Assembly (NCBI GenBank): GCA_022013085.1
Contig: JAKLQX010000016.1
Span: 1-43,016, forward strand
Reading direction: 5' to 3'
DNA length: 43,016 bases
From: Candidatus Omnitrophota bacterium
GTDB lineage: Bacteria > Omnitrophota > Gorgyraeia > Gygaellales > Profunditerraquicolaceae
Shown here: positions 3,129-40,603 of the stretch, piece after piece
Numbering within the stretch: the first letter of the stretch is position 1
Layout of the letters: every line of letters starts with the position of its first letter
The notes under the pieces: generated by a model
What the model saw: only the letters and a program-made list of their open reading frames with translations
Database searches by the model: none
What the model was told of the DNA's origin: nothing
Translations under genes and position numbers: made by a program

Positions 3129-3851
3129 ATGATAAAGTTAGGGATTGCCGGAGCCTGTGGAAAAATGGGTAGGCGTATTTATGAACTTGCTGCACAAGAC
3201 AAGGAATTAGAAGTTGGGTTGGCTTTAGAGAAGAAAGGCACCCCTTTAATTGGCAAAGAATTAGGCAGGTTAAAAGTTTCCTCTAATCCAGATGGTTTAT
3301 TTCTGGTTGATGTTTTGGTAGATTTTACTCTACCAGAAGCCGTTGATGAACATTTAGACTACGTAGCTAAATATAAAAAGGCCTTGGTTTTAGGGACTAC
3401 CGGTTTAACTGATGCGCAAGTAAATAAGGTTAGCGAGGTATCCAGGGTTGTGCCAATTGTTTATTCTCCTAATATGTCTATAGGGGTTAATGTGTTATTT
3501 TCAGTATTACCGGAGATAGCTAAAAAACTAGGCCCAGATTATAGCGTGGAGATTGTTGAGGCGCATCATAAGGCTAAGAAAGATGCTCCCAGTGGCACGG
3601 CTAAAAAATTAGCTGAAATTATTAAAAATGTTACTAAAAAAGATCTCGCTATCCACTCTATTCGCTTAGGTGATATTTTTGGTGATCACACTGTGATTTT
3701 TTGCGGTAACTCTGAGCGTATTGAAGTTAAGCATCAGGCGCATTCGCGTGATTTATTTGCTGTGGGTGCTTTAAAAGCAGTTAAATGGATTGTTGGCAAG
3801 CCCGCTGGGCTATATTCGATGCAAGATGTTTTAAGTAACAGGTCATCCTGA
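3129..3851 (+). CDS. dapB: 4-hydroxy-tetrahydrodipicolinate reductase
   Basis: GACGKMGRRI, VLGTTGLT, YSPNMSIGVNVL, EAHHKAKKDAPSGTA. Confidence 0.95.
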   Translation: MIKLGIAGACGKMGRRIYELAAQDKELEVGLALEKKGTPLIGKELGRLKVSSNPDGLFLVDVLVDFTLPEAVDEHLDYVAKYKKALVLGTTGLTDAQVNKVSEVSRVVPIVYSPNMSIGVNVLFSVLPEIAKKLGPDYSVEIVEAHHKAKKDAPSGTAKKLAEIIKNVTKKDLAIHSIRLGDIFGDHTVIFCGNSERIEVKHQAHSRDLFAVGALKAVKWIVGKPAGLYSMQDVLSNRSS

Positions 3852-3918
3852 CCCCGCCTTGGCGGGGGAAGGATCTCGTTTTTAGATTCTTCGGTCGCTA
3901 TCGCTCCCTCAGAATGAC
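3842..3918. repeat. Dispersed-type palindromic repeat at the dapB 3' end
   Basis: GTCATCCTGA...CCCCGCCTTGGCGGGG...GGATCTCG...AGATTCTTCGG...TCAGAATGAC. The repeat supplies the dapB stop codon. Confidence 0.7.
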
Positions 3919-3940
3919 GCTTATTATTAAGGAGTGTTAA

Positions 3941-5101
3941 ATGTTTAAGGTTTCAAAGAAACTAAATTTACTTCCGCCTTATTTATTTCTAGAAATTGAT
4001 AAGGCTAAGCGTAAAGCACGCGCCGAAGGCAGGGATATCATTGATTTGGGGATAGGGGATCCAGATCAGCCTACGCCAGATTATGTGATTGATGCATTGA
4101 ATAAAGCCGTCGAGGACCCGGCAAATTATCGTTATGCTTTGGATCAAGGAATGCCGGTTTTGCGTTACGCGATTGCAGCCTGGTATAAGCGCAGGTTTAA
4201 TCTGGTTTTGAATCCAGATACAGAAATTCTTCCTCTCATCGGCTCAAAAGAAGGGATTGCGCATTTTCCTTTAGCTTTTATAAATCCAGGTGATTTTGCG
4301 CTTGTGCCTGATCCATGTTATCCTCCGTATAAAGGTGGAGTAATTCTTGCTGGCGGTAAAGTGCATCTTATGCCTTTGCTTGAAGCAAATAACTTCCTTC
4401 CGGATTTAAAAAGAATACCATTTTTAACGCGTAAGAAAGCAAAAATAATCTTTGTAAATTACCCCAATAATCCTACTAATGCTTGTGCCAGTGATGAGTT
4501 CTATGCTGAATTGATAGATTTTGCGAAAAAAAACAAAATTATTATAATTTCGGATGTTGCTTATTCAGAGATGGCTTATGATGGGTATAAACCGCGTAGC
4601 CTTCTGGAGTTTCCCGGAGCAAAAGACCTGGTTATTGAGTTTCATTCATTATCTAAGATCTATAATATGACTGGCTGGCGTGTAGGTTGGGCGTGTGGTA
4701 ATCCAACAATAGTCGCGGCTTTAGCTAAAGTGAAATCAAATATCGATTCTGGAATATTTTCGGCTGTACAATTAGCCGGAGTTGCTGCACTTAACGGGGA
4801 TCAGCATTTTGTGCAAGATATGTGCCAATTGTATCAGGAGAGACGAGATATTTTATGTTCTGGTTTAAATAGCTTAGGTTGGAAGTTAAATAAGCCAAAG
4901 GCAACTTTTTATTTATGGATTAACACTCCGGGCAAAGTTGATTCTATATCTTTTGCCGCACGGCTTTTAAAAGAAGCTGATATTGTGGCTACTCCGGGAG
5001 TAGGTTTTGGAAGATATGGCGAAGGATATATTCGTATGGCTTTAACTGTCAATAAAGAAAGAATAAAAGAAGCGTTGATCAGGCTTAAGAAAATAACCTA
5101 A
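3941..5101 (+). CDS. dapL: LL-diaminopimelate aminotransferase
   Basis: Class I/II aminotransferase (DLGIGDPDQPTP, SLSKIYNMTGWRVGWACGN), clustered with the dap genes. Confidence 0.88.
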   Translation: MFKVSKKLNLLPPYLFLEIDKAKRKARAEGRDIIDLGIGDPDQPTPDYVIDALNKAVEDPANYRYALDQGMPVLRYAIAAWYKRRFNLVLNPDTEILPLIGSKEGIAHFPLAFINPGDFALVPDPCYPPYKGGVILAGGKVHLMPLLEANNFLPDLKRIPFLTRKKAKIIFVNYPNNPTNACASDEFYAELIDFAKKNKIIIISDVAYSEMAYDGYKPRSLLEFPGAKDLVIEFHSLSKIYNMTGWRVGWACGNPTIVAALAKVKSNIDSGIFSAVQLAGVAALNGDQHFVQDMCQLYQERRDILCSGLNSLGWKLNKPKATFYLWINTPGKVDSISFAARLLKEADIVATPGVGFGRYGEGYIRMALTVNKERIKEALIRLKKIT

Positions 5102-5508
5102 TGGCGATTTGTTACCTTGGGCTCGGGTCGAATTTAGGCAATCGCAAAAGGAATATACAGTTGGCTGTTAAAAATATTAAATTGCTTAGAGATACTTGTA
5201 TACTTAAAAAATCTAAAATTGCCGCATCTTTTCCTGTTGGTGGCCCTTCCGGGCAGGGTAATTATTTAAATGCTGCTTTAAAAATCGAAACTAAGCTTAC
5301 TCCTATAAATTTACTGAAAAAACTTAAGAAAATTGAAATTATTTTAGGCCGCTTTAAGAGTGTGCGATTTGCTCCTAGGATTATTGATTTAGATATTCTA
5401 CTTTATGCAGATAAAGTTATAAATAGTAAAAAATTAACAATCCCGCATCCGCGAATGTTTGAGCGGGATTTTGTGATTAATCCTTTAAAAGAGGCGATAT
5501 GCAGGTAA
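5101..5508 (+). CDS. folK: 2-amino-4-hydroxy-6-hydroxymethyldihydropteridine pyrophosphokinase
   Basis: YLGLGSNLGNR, RFAPRIIDLDILLY, IPHPRMFERDFVINPL. Confidence 0.93.
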   Translation: MAICYLGLGSNLGNRKRNIQLAVKNIKLLRDTCILKKSKIAASFPVGGPSGQGNYLNAALKIETKLTPINLLKKLKKIEIILGRFKSVRFAPRIIDLDILLYADKVINSKKLTIPHPRMFERDFVINPLKEAICR

Positions 5509-11148: not shown

Positions 11149-11221
11149 CCCCGCACCTTCTAAATATTCAGCTATTAAAGTCGTAAGGTTTAAAGAATTG
11201 AATAAAAAAGAAGGTGCGGGG
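11149..11221. repeat. Palindromic element family P1, copy A
   Basis: Perfect 13-bp inverted arms CCCCGCACCTTCT ... AGAAGGTGCGGGG, with an inner ATTCAG/TTGAAT pair. Lies between the uvrA stop and the next start. Confidence 0.85.
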
Positions 11222-21972: not shown

Positions 21973-22344
21973 ATGAGGAAAGGTTTTACGTTAATCGAGT
22001 TGATAGTTGTAATTATCATTATCGGTGTGCTTGCTAGTTTTGGCTTGCCGCAATACATTAAAGTTGCCGAAAAAGCGAGAAAGGCTGAAGGGGTAAGCTT
22101 GCTTAGTGTTATTCGTTCATCACAATTAAGGTATAAGGCTGAAACTGGGGCTTATGCCACAGTAATGACTGTTCTAGACTTAGACTACACAACTCCGAAG
22201 TATTTTACTGTTAACGCTCCCGCGGGTACTGCTGCACAGGTAGGCAGGGTTACTAGAAATGGTGTTGAGGGCGCTCAATATGTATATGTGTTGGGGATTA
22301 GCGACGCAGGGACTGTTACTTGCACTGGAGCGAGCTGTATTTAG
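21973..22344 (+). CDS. Type IV prepilin-like protein
   Basis: Canonical MRKGFTLIELIVVIIIIGVLASFGLPQYIK. Confidence 0.93.
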   Translation: MRKGFTLIELIVVIIIIGVLASFGLPQYIKVAEKARKAEGVSLLSVIRSSQLRYKAETGAYATVMTVLDLDYTTPKYFTVNAPAGTAAQVGRVTRNGVEGAQYVYVLGISDAGTVTCTGASCI

Positions 22345-22405: not shown

Positions 22406-22849
22406 ATGAATAAAGGGTATGCCCAGTTAGAAAATAACATTGTTAAAGAGCATAATTTTCTAACTGGGTTTACTTTGATTGAATTAATTATCGTTGTGGT
22501 GATTGTCGGGATATTGGCTGCAATTAGTTTACCGAAGTTTGGAGTTACAAAGGAACGGGCGCTGGATAAGGAAGCTAAAGCTAACCTTGCGCTTATTCAG
22601 GCAGCAGAAAAGATTTATAGGATGGAAACAGGAATTTATTATCCTAACGATGGGAGTACTGCAAATGTTACCGGTATAAATACTAATTTAAGAGTTTCCC
22701 TGCCTACTAGTGCTTCATCCTGGTGGTATTACGCGTATGGTGATAAGACAACTGCTGTACGTAGCGACAGTAGCAGGACTTGGACTTTAACTTATACGGA
22801 TACCGGGGGTATTGCGACTTGCACAGGAACCGGATGCCCACCCTACTAA
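22406..22849 (+). CDS. Type IV prepilin-like protein with an extended leader
   Basis: MNKGYAQLENNIVKEHNFLT|GFTLIELIIVVVIVGILAAISLPKFG. Confidence 0.88.
   Translation: MNKGYAQLENNIVKEHNFLTGFTLIELIIVVVIVGILAAISLPKFGVTKERALDKEAKANLALIQAAEKIYRMETGIYYPNDGSTANVTGINTNLRVSLPTSASSWWYYAYGDKTTAVRSDSSRTWTLTYTDTGGIATCTGTGCPPY
22422..22468. repeat. Inverted-repeat element inside a prepilin leader
   Basis: CCCAGTTAGAAAAT (22422-22435) and ATTTTCTAACTGGG (22455-22468), a perfect 14-bp inverted repeat. Confidence 0.9.
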
Positions 22850-29390: not shown

Positions 29391-30674
29391 CTATATAAGT
29401 TTATCATCTGGACGGTAAGGACGCTGAGGGAGGGGGAAAATGATTAAGAAAATTATAACAACACTAGAAAGACATCCCGTATACTTAAGCTTAATAACCG
29501 GTACCGTCAGTGGCGTCGTAGGTGGTATCATAAGCGGAATTATAGTCGGTTTTATACTAAATAGATTTATAAAATAAAAAACAATTAAGGGATCGGTCAA
29601 TACATTGTTACCCCCTTGAGTTAAGGAATCGGCGTATTTAACAAGCATAGCATCTAAGTCAACAGGTGGAATCATTAAGAGCCGTTTATCTAAATCAGGT
29701 TTTTTCTCTTGGATTAATTGCCAAGGCGATTTATTCTCTTTGTAAGTATTAGGCCTCTCAAGATTGAAGAATAATTGATAGGTTGAAGCTTTACTCATAA
29801 ATTCCGCTCTGTCGCAAAATGTTTCTATTTCATAGAACTCTGTTTCCATAAGGCCGTGTATTGTTTCAACATCAGCCTGCATACGGTGAGCTCCCGGGAA
29901 GATGGTGCCATGGATTTGCCCAGGCAGGGATTCTATAGCACGAGTATATGCTGATGGTTCTTTGGCATTCCAGGAGCCGCAGTATTCTACGCCGTTATCA
30001 GTCTGACGGTATGCGCCGGAATCAGGCAGCGCTTTAGAGGCAATTAGGTATTGATTAATATATTCGGCGAACAGCGTGGCATTAATTAACGATAGTTCAT
30101 CGGAGAAGCCGAGGAACAAAGCTCCGCAGCTGACTTCTCTAAGAGTATATTGCACAGCAGGCAGGCGTGATCGTTTCATCTGTGGCCAGTATTCGGGGAT
30201 ATCGGTTAAATCTTTGGTGTCTTCGCAGGCTTGATGGAAGAAGGGGAATTGTTTTTTGACTTCGCGCAAGTTGCGTTTGGTGATGTATTTTTTTCTTCGC
30301 TTACCTCGCGCGACACCAGCTTCTTTCCATATCTTGCGGATGGTTTTTTCGGCTTGGGGAAGTTGTTCAAGGCATTTAACTTGTTTAGCGCCAAGGTTAC
30401 GATATTTATTCTTTTTGAGCCCGACGATATGGTCTTTGATGCTTTGGGCAGTGGCGCGCGGCGAGTAATGTGGTTTACGAGATAAATCAAGTAATCCCTC
30501 ATAGCCGTGTTCTTTGAATCGTTTTAGCCATTTGCGTACTACTGGCGGCGATGTATTAAATATTCGAGCCGCAGGCTTAATGCCGTGTTTAAGCGCGTAT
30601 TGAATCATTTGATATCGGTGTGCTCGTTTGTCTTTACAATTCCGCATGTTTTGGTAATATGATAATGGGCACAT
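29391..30674 (-). CDS. DDE (rve-type) transposase with N-terminal HTH; ORF reads beyond the IS end
   Basis: HTH: ALKHGIKPAARIFNTSPPVVRKWLKRFKEHGYEGLLDLSRKPH. DDE-like: DTKDLTD, QTDNGVEY, ADVETIHGLMETEF. Confidence 0.88.
   Translation of the reverse strand: MCPLSYYQNMRNCKDKRAHRYQMIQYALKHGIKPAARIFNTSPPVVRKWLKRFKEHGYEGLLDLSRKPHYSPRATAQSIKDHIVGLKKNKYRNLGAKQVKCLEQLPQAEKTIRKIWKEAGVARGKRRKKYITKRNLREVKKQFPFFHQACEDTKDLTDIPEYWPQMKRSRLPAVQYTLREVSCGALFLGFSDELSLINATLFAEYINQYLIASKALPDSGAYRQTDNGVEYCGSWNAKEPSAYTRAIESLPGQIHGTIFPGAHRMQADVETIHGLMETEFYEIETFCDRAEFMSKASTYQLFFNLERPNTYKENKSPWQLIQEKKPDLDKRLLMIPPVDLDAMLVKYADSLTQGGNNVLTDPLIVFYFINLFSIKPTIIPLMIPPTTPLTVPVIKLKYTGCLSSVVIIFLIIFPLPQRPYRPDDKLI
29402..29439 (+). 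repeat. 38-nt start-proximal leader repeat, copy 3
   Basis: TATCATCTGGACGGTAAGGACGCTGAGGGAGGGGGAAA|ATG. Confidence 0.8.
29440..29577 (+). CDS. 45-aa predicted single-TM small protein (below the ORF-track cutoff)
   Basis: MIKKIITTLERHPVYLSLITGTVSGVVGGIISGIIVGFILNRFIK*, preceded by a strong SD and leader copy 3. Confidence 0.6.
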   Translation: MIKKIITTLERHPVYLSLITGTVSGVVGGIISGIIVGFILNRFIK

Positions 30675-31092
30675 ACGAGAGTCCTCCTTTTGCGAGAAGC
30701 GGCTCTTAATTTACATCAGTATGTGCCTCTTTTCATTATATTTCTACTGAATAAGATTTAAGGTATCTCGGGTCTTCATAAGATTCTTGTTCTTTGAACC
30801 AGGCTTTTAAATTCCGCGCTCTCCAAAAAGAAGAGAAGCGGGTATTAAGAATATTTGAAGGCTCGTAGGAGCCGGTGTAATTATTATCTGGTTTAAGATC
30901 GCCGTTCCTAGGGTTCTCCAGAGGTTCTTTTTTAGAGACTTTTTGCCGTAAAGGCGTTTTCGGTTTAGGTGATGTTGGTTTCGGGCCTAAATCAAATTCA
31001 TCCAAAGCCGCCTTTAATTTCTTAAAAATTTCTCTACTTATACAAAGAACTTTTATTAATTTTCCCTCACAGGGGAGGGGGTAACGATGTAT
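29600..31092 (-). mobile_element. Insertion sequence with imperfect terminal inverted repeats (boundaries approximate)
   Basis: ATACATTGTTACCCCCT (29600-29616) pairs with AGGGGGTAACGATGTAT (31076-31092; one mismatch in 17). They flank a DDE transposase ORF. Confidence 0.75.
30736..31005 (-). CDS. 89-aa charged ORF inside the IS
   Basis: MDEFDLGPKPTSPKPKTPLRQKVSKKEP...; upstream in-frame stop 15 nt before the ATG; lies between the IRs. Confidence 0.45.
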   Translation of the reverse strand: MDEFDLGPKPTSPKPKTPLRQKVSKKEPLENPRNGDLKPDNNYTGSYEPSNILNTRFSSFWRARNLKAWFKEQESYEDPRYLKSYSVEI

Positions 31093-34157: not shown

Positions 34158-35083
34158 GCGAACAATTTTATCAAAGAGATGTATATGGCCAGACACTGGT
34201 TGAGTTAGGCGCAAGGGATAAGAATATTGTGGTTTTGGATGCGGATCTTTCAAGTTCTACGCGTACTAACCTTTTTGCCAAACAATTTCCAGATCGTTTT
34301 TTTAATTTTGGCGTAGCTGAACAGAACATGATGGCTACAGCCGCAGGAATTGCCAGTTGTGGCAAAACAGTTTTTGTTTCTACCTTTGCAGTATTTGCTT
34401 CTGGCCGCGCCTGGGATCAGGTAAGGGTCTCTATAAGCTATAATAATTTTAATGTTAAGATCGTAGCTACGCATGCCGGTATAACTGTTGGCCCGGATGG
34501 AGCAAGCCACCAGGCATTAGAAGATATTGCGCTTATGCGCGTGCTTCCCAATATGAATATTATTGTGCCTTGTGATGGCCCGCAAACCGCTTCGGCAATC
34601 ATGACTGCAGCAAATCATCCAGGCCCTTTTTATATTCGTTTGGGCCGTCCGAAAATACCTACTATCGAGAATAAAGGCGAATTTAAATTTGGGGAAGCCC
34701 AAACTATAACAGAAGGTAATGATGCTACTATTATTGCCTGCGGAGTGATGGTTTCTGAAGCTTTCCTGGCTGTAAAAAGTTTAGCTCAGAAAGGTTGTAA
34801 GGCGCGCTTGATTAATATGCATTGTATCCGGCCGTTAGATAACGCGGCTATTCTGAAAGCTGCTAAAGAAACTAAACTTATCGTTGTATGTGAAGAGCAT
34901 AATGTTATTGGTGGCTTGGCTTCTAGTATAGACGAGATAGTTGCTGAAAACTTTCCGGTAAAAGTAATGCGTATAGGCATACGTAATCGCTTTGGCCAAT
35001 CTGGCGAACCGGATGATCTGCTAAAAGAATATCATCTAAGTAGTTTGGATATAGAAAAAGCAGTTTTATCTAATATCTCTTAG
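34154..35083 (+). CDS. Transketolase C-terminal subunit
   Basis: VVLDADLSSSTRT, FFNFGVAEQNMMATAAG, THAGITVGPDGASHQ. Confidence 0.95.
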   Translation: MSEQFYQRDVYGQTLVELGARDKNIVVLDADLSSSTRTNLFAKQFPDRFFNFGVAEQNMMATAAGIASCGKTVFVSTFAVFASGRAWDQVRVSISYNNFNVKIVATHAGITVGPDGASHQALEDIALMRVLPNMNIIVPCDGPQTASAIMTAANHPGPFYIRLGRPKIPTIENKGEFKFGEAQTITEGNDATIIACGVMVSEAFLAVKSLAQKGCKARLINMHCIRPLDNAAILKAAKETKLIVVCEEHNVIGGLASSIDEIVAENFPVKVMRIGIRNRFGQSGEPDDLLKEYHLSSLDIEKAVLSNIS

Positions 35084-35114
35084 TGTAGGGGAGGTTTAAA
35101 CCTCCCCTACACTA
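35081..35114. repeat. 34-bp perfect palindrome overlapping the transketolase stop
   Basis: TAGTGTAGGGGAGGTTTAAACCTCCCCTACACTA. Same 26-bp core as 1424-1457. Confidence 0.9.
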
Positions 35115-35131
35115 GTTAAAAGCCTAAGTTC

Positions 35132-36103
35132 ATGAGGTACTCCTCTTTGCCGTTGACTATTAAATCCTTCGCCAAAATTAATCTATATTTACAGGTTTTA
35201 AATAAACGTAAAGATAATTTTCATAATCTTAAGACATTATTTGCGCGGATTAACTTAGCAGATACAATTATTCTTAAAAATGTACAAGGTAATGCGATCA
35301 AAATTAAATGTAATAATCGGGGAGTGCCGCAAGATAAAACAAACCTTTGTTGGCGTGCTGCAGCGTTATTAAAGCAAAGCCATAAGTCAAAGAACGGTTT
35401 AGAGATAGAAATAAAAAAATTTATTCCGATTGGCGCAGGCCTTGGAGGCGGATCATCTAATGCTGCCAGCGTGTTTTTAGGGTTAAATAAATATTGGAAT
35501 CTTGGTTTATCTAAAACAAAGCTGTTGGGTTTAGCTGTAAAGTTAGGCAGTGATGTTCCTTTTTTTATTCATGACGCAAAGTTTGCTTTAGGAAGCAATC
35601 GGGGCGATAAGATTAAGCCAGTAGTATTTTTAAAGCAGCTTAAGCTTTGGTTTATTCTAGTTTATCCGAATATTAAGGTTTCTACGCCTTTGATTTATCA
35701 GAAGTTTGATTCCTGCCTAGCGGCAGGCAAGGCTTTTTCTGGGTTGATCCCGCACCTTGTACAAATTCAGGATGGTAAAAAGCTGAATAAAAAACAAGGT
35801 GCGGGATTGACAACTCCTCAAGCTGATGTTAAAATACTAATTTCTGAGTTATCGCGCAAGGGTTTTCGGGCCGCTCGGGAGGGTCTTTTTAATAGCCTAG
35901 AGGCTGTTACTACCAGGCTTTATCCTGTAGTTAATCAGGTTAAAAACGCGCTTTATGGCATGGGTTTAGAGCGAGTAATGATGTCTGGAAGCGGTCCGGC
36001 GGTATTTGGGATCTGTAGTTCGCAAAAACAGGCTCAGGATTTAAGTGGGAAGTTGCGTAGAAAATATAAATCTTGGCAGATTTTTGTAACTTCTACAGTT
36101 TAG
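35132..36103 (+). CDS. ispE: 4-diphosphocytidyl-2-C-methyl-D-erythritol kinase
   Basis: KSFAKINLYLQVLNKR, PIGAGLGGGSSNAA, LGSDVPFF, MMSGSGPAVFGI. Confidence 0.93.
   Translation: MRYSSLPLTIKSFAKINLYLQVLNKRKDNFHNLKTLFARINLADTIILKNVQGNAIKIKCNNRGVPQDKTNLCWRAAALLKQSHKSKNGLEIEIKKFIPIGAGLGGGSSNAASVFLGLNKYWNLGLSKTKLLGLAVKLGSDVPFFIHDAKFALGSNRGDKIKPVVFLKQLKLWFILVYPNIKVSTPLIYQKFDSCLAAGKAFSGLIPHLVQIQDGKKLNKKQGAGLTTPQADVKILISELSRKGFRAAREGLFNSLEAVTTRLYPVVNQVKNALYGMGLERVMMSGSGPAVFGICSSQKQAQDLSGKLRRKYKSWQIFVTSTV
35712..35727. repeat. Short REP-like palindrome inside ispE
   Basis: CCTGCC-TAGC-GGCAGG. Confidence 0.6.
35747..35807. repeat. Palindromic element family P1, copy B (inside ispE)
   Basis: Perfect 14-bp arms ATCCCGCACCTTGT ... 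ACAAGGTGCGGGAT, inner ATTCAG/CTGAAT. Confidence 0.85.
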
Positions 36104-36737: not shown

Positions 36738-36747
36738 TAGTTAGGAT

Positions 36748-36853
36748 TTAGGGGACGTCCTCTGTGGGGACACCCTTGTAAGAGATAGATTTGATTTAAT
36801 TGGTAATATAATGGTTGCAATAATAGGGTGTCCCTTTTAAGGACGTCCCCCTA
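36748..36853. repeat. MITE/REP-like long imperfect inverted repeat
   Basis: TTAGGGGACGTCC tctgtg GGGACACCCT ... AGGGTGTCCC ttttaa GGACGTCCCCCTAA. Confidence 0.75.
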
Positions 36854-36862
36854 ATAACTAAT

Positions 36863-39967: not shown

Positions 39968-40603
39968 ATGAAATTAATTGTGGGTTTGGGTAATCCAGGT
40001 TTAATTTATGCGTTTACCCGGCATAATATAGGATTTCAAGTTGTAAAATCTTTAGCCCGTTCTTTAAAAATTGATCTTAAAAGAGATCGTTTAGTTTATT
40101 CCATCGCAGGTAAAAGTAAGTGCGCCTCTGGCAATATCATATTAGCTATGCCGCAGACCTTTATGAATTTAAGCGGTGTGGCAGTTAAGGCCTGTTTTAA
40201 GAAATTTAAAGTATCACCAGCTGATCTTTTGGTAATCTGCGATGACTTGGATTTGGAGTTGGGCAGAATAAAGATTCGTCCCGGTGGATCAAGTAATGGA
40301 CAGCGGGGGTTAGATTCGATTATTGAGCATATTGGTACGCAGGAGTTTAGCCGTTTGCGTATCGGTATTGGCCGTCCGAGTAAATCAACGGACGCCGCAA
40401 AATATGTGCTTACAAGTTTTTTAAGGAAAGAAAAAGCATTAGTTGAGCTGGCGAAAGAAAACTCTGCTAATTGCTGTCTTTCTTGGGTAGAAAAGGGAGT
40501 AGTTGAAACTATGAATATATTTAATCCCGCACCTTCGGTATATTTAGATAATAGAAGGAGTGAGGTAAAATTAATTAACAGAAAGAAGGTGCGGGATGAA
40601 TAA
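39968..40603 (+). CDS. pth: Peptidyl-tRNA hydrolase
   Basis: MKLIVGLGNPGLIYAFTRHNIGF, PQTFMNLSG, DDLDLELGRIKIRPGGSSNGQRGLDSI. ORF track start 39941 includes repeat-derived MESNQASRR. Confidence 0.95.
   Translation: MKLIVGLGNPGLIYAFTRHNIGFQVVKSLARSLKIDLKRDRLVYSIAGKSKCASGNIILAMPQTFMNLSGVAVKACFKKFKVSPADLLVICDDLDLELGRIKIRPGGSSNGQRGLDSIIEHIGTQEFSRLRIGIGRPSKSTDAAKYVLTSFLRKEKALVELAKENSANCCLSWVEKGVVETMNIFNPAPSVYLDNRRSEVKLINRKKVRDE
40525..40595. repeat. Palindromic element family P1, copy C (pth 3' end / rpsF start)
   Basis: ATCCCGCACCTTC ... GAAGGTGCGGGAT; the right arm abuts or overlaps the rpsF ATG. Approximate edges. Confidence 0.8.

Follow-up and report, generated by a model that had tools for sequence, protein, structure and literature searches.

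The window analysed here, the whole stretch of 43,016 nucleotides from a Candidatus Omnitrophota bacterium, carries two neighbouring prepilin genes on the forward strand. The upstream gene (21973-22344 in the ORF list) encodes a protein that begins with MRKGFTLIE and is free of insertion. The downstream gene (22406-22849), assigned from the ORF list and NCBIfam models, encodes a GspG/PilA-like prepilin of 147 aa, and its translation from the ATG at 22406 begins with MNKGYAQLENNIVKEHNFLTG followed, across the predicted cleavage site, by FTLIELIIVV. This protein scores above the cut-off of the prepilin cleavage domain TIGR02532 (NCBIfam) with an alignment from residue 21, and since its alignments to prepilin models begin at residue 20-21, the leader comprises 21 residues. 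The leader is hydrophilic, ends in Gly-1 and is followed by a hydrophobic stretch with Glu5, as is characteristic of class III signal peptides. Prepilin leaders of 6-26 aa are known, a range that includes the one found here, and Gly-1 is the residue indispensable for prepilin processing (PMC4471445). The codons between 22406 and FTLIE contain no in-frame ATG, GTG or TTG, and therefore a translation start downstream of the insertion is not plausible; an earlier note on this DNA had raised the possibility of a start elsewhere.

The same note had described in this leader an in-frame insertion of 51 nt with a perfect 14-bp inverted repeat, and both are present as described. The arms CCCAGTTAGAAAAT (22422-22435) and ATTTTCTAACTGGG (22455-22468), given for the forward strand, are 19 nt apart, and the net insertion of 51 nt consists of a palindromic, MITE-like element of 47 bp (22422-22468; arms of 13-14 bp) and a 4-bp target-site duplication (TSD). 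Compared with the family consensus YCCCGTTAGARAN, the window copy has A/T instead of C/G at arm position 4 in both arms. The right TSD copy (22469-22472) is TTTA, which together with the next C forms the preferred target TTTAC of the family; the left copy (22418-22421) reads TATG and is probably a decayed TTTA, so that the window copy has no exact TSD. The GGG triplets noted at both junctions are present, but they are not the duplicated sequence, which is the tetramer TTTA. The left one (22415-22417), as judged from the sequence and the short leaders of orthologues, is the old Gly codon of the original MNKG/FTLIE leader (the slash marks the cleavage site), and the right one (22466-22468) constitutes the last three bases of the element and supplies, in the frame of the ATG at 22406, a new Gly-1 codon (codon 21) of G/FTLIE. 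Decay of the left TSD copy appears to have turned the duplicated GFT into GYA (GFTQLE to GYAQLE). RNA folding of the element region gave a z-score of -4.87, with none of 200 shuffles equally stable, and Rfam returned no credible match. The exact 14-mer of the arm has no second occurrence within the window.

The window contains further repeats. Palindromes of the form YCCCGCACCTTC...GAAGGTGCGGGR are found at 11149-11221, 35748-35806 and 40525-40599, with 4-bp duplications (TGAA and TTGA) at two of them and an imperfect one (TTAA/TGAA) at the third. The copy at 35748 is 59 bp long, frame-neutral and located inside the open ORF 35119-36100. These palindromes probably form a sister family whose mobility is of the same kind. 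At 1424-1457 and 35081-35114, each time directly after an ORF, there are two almost identical, perfect palindromes of 34 bp (GTAGGGGAGGTTTAAACCTCCCCTAC), and a similar one is present in locus L003; they look like terminators or another repeat family. An inverted repeat at 36746-36855 (GGGGACGTCC...GGGGACACCC / AGGGTGTCCC...GGACGTCCCC) has 31-nt arms spaced by 48 nt. The ORF at 29391-30674 on the reverse strand resembles, by eye, an integrase-core transposase (HTH and DDE-like parts), and the start of this ORF has an imperfect inverted repeat (30659-30736).

The prepilin search gave matches in all 39 genomes covered (the window's own and 38 relatives, including 22 from the genus), most of which align only from the GFTLIE motif onward. 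Where the starts are readable, the genus relatives have short leaders such as MHKGFTLVE, MKRGFTLTE and MLKKKGFTLIE that lack the 51 nt. Thus, the orthologue comparison proposed in the earlier note bears out its reading, and the 51 nt represent an insertion in the window's lineage. The window's own genome contains one more clean palindrome (contig C96, 3300-3342) and a degenerate one (contig C31), both without a matching 4-bp duplication.

A search with the arm, also proposed in the note, revealed that the arm sequence defines a dispersed family. The original observation was therefore correct, yet it understates the case, as the palindrome is one copy of this family. Among 285 genomes of the phylum, TTTACCCCGTTAGA occurs at 548 places in 84 genomes against five for the control (both are sums of per-genome counts), and a single genome has as many as 54 arm matches flanked by TTTA. 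The strict palindrome GTTAGAAA-N8..38-TTTCTAAC was found in 57 of the 285, far above its reversed-pattern control. The hosts among the matches listed include Omnitrophota, Phycisphaerae/Planctomycetota, Elusimicrobiota (Elusimicrobia), Patescibacteria, Deltaproteobacteria/Desulfobacterota-type MAGs and others. Most elements are 40-65 bp long (typically 47, 50, 53, 59, 62 or 65 bp), too short to encode a transposase. The arms are 13 bp, with 94-100% pairing at positions 1-13 and a sharp stop at position 14, beyond which no pairing exceeds chance. Arm positions covary, with observed and expected pairing of 0.94 and 0.67 at position 1, 0.99 and 0.80 at position 11, and 0.97 and 0.58 at position 13. 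A uniform 40-bp subfamily, CCCCGTTAGAAATAATGCCCCGCTGGAATTTCTAACGGGG, with the TSD TTTA is nearly unchanged in six loci (L145, L144, L146, L159, L203, L217) from Deltaproteobacteria-, Desulfobacterales-, Thermodesulfobacteriota- and Nitrospirae-labelled MAGs and may have been recently active.

Of 129 copies, 87 have identical flanking 4-mers, compared with a mean of 14 and a maximum of 25 after shuffling, and only one has identical flanking 5-mers; the duplication is therefore exactly 4 bp. The target words follow YNNR, with TTTA/TAAA (46 copies) ahead of TGAA/TTCA (13), CAAG/CTTG (7) and others. When the words are read as TAAA, 57% are preceded by G and 33% by A, which makes TTTAC or TTTAT the preferred target. 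With terminal inverted repeats, a TSD of fixed length and multiple dispersed copies without a transposase of their own, these palindromes appear, on sequence grounds, to be a MITE-like family that is dispersed in several bacterial phyla and undescribed; queries for GFTPLE, NPVRN/ISNGV and Omnitrophica MITE in the open-access PMC literature found no published description. Carriage by phages was rejected, because 2.9 million viral contigs gave only two family matches; the prepilin junction was absent from them.

Of 130 distinct elements, 95 have a combined length of element and TSD that is divisible by three; the frame is kept because the lengths are mostly 3n+2 and the TSD is 4 bp. Frame-neutral copies make up 53 of 59 inside long ORFs, a figure that is partly a consequence of requiring an open ORF, versus 31 of 70 outside. 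Two of the three reading frames pass through the arms without a stop (NPVRN...ISNGV and TPLE...FLTG), and the third contains TAG and TAA. Pfam assigns the in-ORF hosts to phosphoglycerate kinase (L166), a HypE-like protein (L142), amidohydrolase (L012), QPRTase (L030), DNA polymerase III delta' (L105), MurJ (L080) and diphthamide synthase (L092). Aligned with solved structures (PDB), the insert in the phosphoglycerate kinase shows up as a clean gap of 19 residues immediately ahead of the conserved NDAF strand, and that in the HypE-like protein splits the alignment between the two halves. The element is probably read through in translation within such enzymes. In the same kinase (ORF 3730-5112), a further extra segment, SLRGVPQSGTTKQSNNSTEIASPSARNDTEG, at approximately residues 112-146 resembles another dispersed repeat that is translated.

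Tandem and nested copies also occur, including two in one protein of genome G195 with a shared TAAA between them; a search for the empty site of this double insertion found no orthologue and gave only the element peptide at another place in G195. In loci L286 (15574-15684) and L115 (1364-1520 and 1994-2148), prepilin leaders contain nested elements, and there is a tandem pair whose members have the TAAA between them in common. Such arrangements suggest that existing copies receive new insertions, inside them or next to them.

The element recurs at prepilin genes. Their GFT motif (GGN TTT ACN) contains the preferred target TTTAC. Among 384 genomes of the phylum, 39 contain the junction between the right arm and GFTLxE, with 79 occurrences in total (control 1), 58 of these within the 285-genome set. 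From the 41 distinct junctions in the fetched loci, 26 have an in-frame left arm and 23 of these 26 an exact TTTA duplication. The leaders read ...KKRGFTPLE, then a variable part, then SLTG/FTLIE, and the elements (29-146 bp) differ between pilins in the sequence and length of their centres. The 23 with the exact duplication include three Planctomycetota loci (L175, L222, L226). Apart from its decayed left TTTA, the window copy is built in the same way. Approximately one-tenth of the TTTA-flanked copies are at the prepilin site, as estimated from 58 junctions and 548 arm matches, two patterns whose sets of counted copies are not quite identical. Prepilin GFT sites account for three of the 9076 TTTA words (0.03%) in 385 kb sampled from G195, and therefore the prepilin excess is of the order of hundredfold. 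Target choice, survival or a spread among paralogous pilins may lie behind it.

Searches with PF01609, PF13701 and PF13546 and for long-distance arm pairs in the fetched loci revealed no autonomous element with the family ends. No transposase of the IS4/IS5-type DDE group (PF01609) carries the arms, IS1380 (PF13701) is below the cut-off in the sole genome that matched, and IS701 (PF13546) is present in one of 24 genomes. Arm pairs 150-4500 bp apart with a matching TSD proved to be short elements that lie next to each other, and the best autonomous candidate (L252) is not a transposon but an rnf-like operon in which an element lies close to a gene start. Y1 transposases are present in 23 of the 24 genomes examined and are equally common in genomes without the element; no family arm was found near Y1 genes in the sampled flanks.

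Taken as a whole, the data are very probably best explained by a short non-autonomous MITE-like element, a copy of which entered the TTTA within the prepilin sequence GGG-TTT-ACT. It would be mobilised in trans by some transposase, and in ordinary genes its copies would survive where 15-20 extra residues are tolerated. In prepilins, the duplicated TTTA would rebuild F-T and the terminal GGG of the element the essential Gly-1, after which prepilin peptidase would remove everything that the element encodes. Copies would survive there especially well because F-T and Gly-1 are rebuilt and the encoded peptide is then cut off, and the high prepilin frequency would combine the TTTAC preference with this tolerance through leader removal. 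For the window protein, the claim that the insert lies within the part to be removed by prepilin peptidase is supported as a reading, with the cleavage itself predicted; the element-encoded leader peptide should be cut off and the mature pilin should be unchanged. The decay of the upstream GFT in the window copy would have been a later event. The centres of the copies differ widely, beyond the expectation for recent transposition of one master copy, which counts against this explanation, as do the inexact TSD (TATG/TTTA) of the window copy and the failure of the searches above to find an autonomous element with these ends.

Several other origins were considered. Ordinary drift toward a long non-canonical leader with a palindrome by chance could appeal to known leaders of up to 26 residues (PMC4471445), but it is refuted by an arm that defines a dispersed family with a TSD and a near-zero control, and by the short leaders of the genus relatives. 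The palindromic, dispersed nature of the family and the presence of Y1 transposases in nearly all genomes examined would fit a REP sequence moved by RAYT, the Y1 tyrosine transposase. This origin is largely refuted by the strict 4-bp TSD, which is not expected of the single-strand Y1 mechanism, as well as by Y1 genes being as common in element-free genomes and having no arm near any of those sampled. The GTAG/CGTC tag of the kind described for REP sequences (PMC3733652) is also absent. A true Rickettsia palindromic element (RPE) gained by transfer is highly improbable: in-frame palindromic insertion in many unrelated proteins is indeed what is known of RPEs (PMC10969869, PMC2229807), but these are about 105-150 bp rather than 40-65 bp, the hosts here belong to other phyla, and the window protein matches no RPE model (NCBIfam, E up to 1). 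The stable mRNA hairpin and the insertions inside conserved enzymes such as phosphoglycerate kinase could also suggest that the insertion is never translated, through ribosomal bypass or RNA removal as for the bypassing elements of yeast mitochondria. We consider this very unlikely because of the frame neutrality of 53 of the 59 long-ORF copies, in which the stop-bearing frame is unused; bypassed elements would not need an open, frame-neutral sequence.

Rather than repeated insertions, the prepilin copies might descend from a single old leader module, or from a few, that duplication and gene conversion distributed among pilin genes and that were perhaps kept for a useful long basic leader, an account that we regard as rather doubtful. 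In some genomes (L122, L115, L136) several adjacent pilins carry the element, and the peptides that elements encode in prepilins have a higher K+R content than same-frame ones elsewhere (0.166 vs 0.113, permutation p = 0.034; 24 vs 11 sequences), although this effect is small and the comparison was made after seeing the data. Against such modules, the centres vary among pilins in both sequence and length, and pilins of different kinds carry the element, as do unrelated genes with other TSDs. Returning to the MITE-like element, its ends encode the missing part of the prepilin-peptidase site and its target word lies within that site, so the host protease would erase each such insertion from the mature protein. 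On this reading, for which the case is close to balanced, the family would have in effect a protein-level excision route, with prepilin leaders as a standing safe haven and some modified leaders possibly adopted by the host.

So far, palindromic elements that insert in frame have been known chiefly in Rickettsia, and the family described here occurs in free-living lineages. Its many copies, defined target, exact ends and empty sites make the spread and tolerance of coding palindromes testable, and the prepilin case would join a transposon target word, its terminal codon and a host protease in one mechanism of tolerance. The family also accounts for annotation puzzles such as odd pilin leaders of the type GFTPLE...SLTGFTLIE and NPVRN...ISNGV insertions in enzymes of uncultured bacteria.

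The likeness to RPEs drawn in the earlier note holds for behaviour but probably not for membership. RPEs (Ogata et al. 2000, as reviewed) are about 105-150 bp long and known in Rickettsia (PMC10969869, PMC2229807), and their target-site duplication is listed as unknown (PMC2229807). Like RPEs, the present elements are palindromic and non-autonomous, lie in frame in many unrelated, probably functional protein genes and have no known mobilising enzyme. Unlike RPEs, they are 40-65 bp long, differ in their arms, show a clear TSD of 4 bp with a TTTAC target, occur in several phyla and favour a site in prepilin leaders at which insertion restores the cleavage site; this separation is drawn by size and description. 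With bacterial MITEs that have readable frames (ERIC, the 107-bp form of Correia, Yersinia YPAL and Coxiella QMITE1) they share terminal inverted repeats, a TSD, the lack of a transposase and occasional in-frame fusions (PMC2229807, PMC10969869), but they are much shorter, consisting almost entirely of arms around a centre that varies (about 14-40 nt), and their lengths are biased towards keeping the frame. GTAG/CGTC REP sequences of the REP/RAYT system are likewise short dispersed bacterial palindromes that are sometimes intragenic (PMC3733652), whereas the present family has no tag tetranucleotide or link to Y1 and carries a 4-bp TSD.
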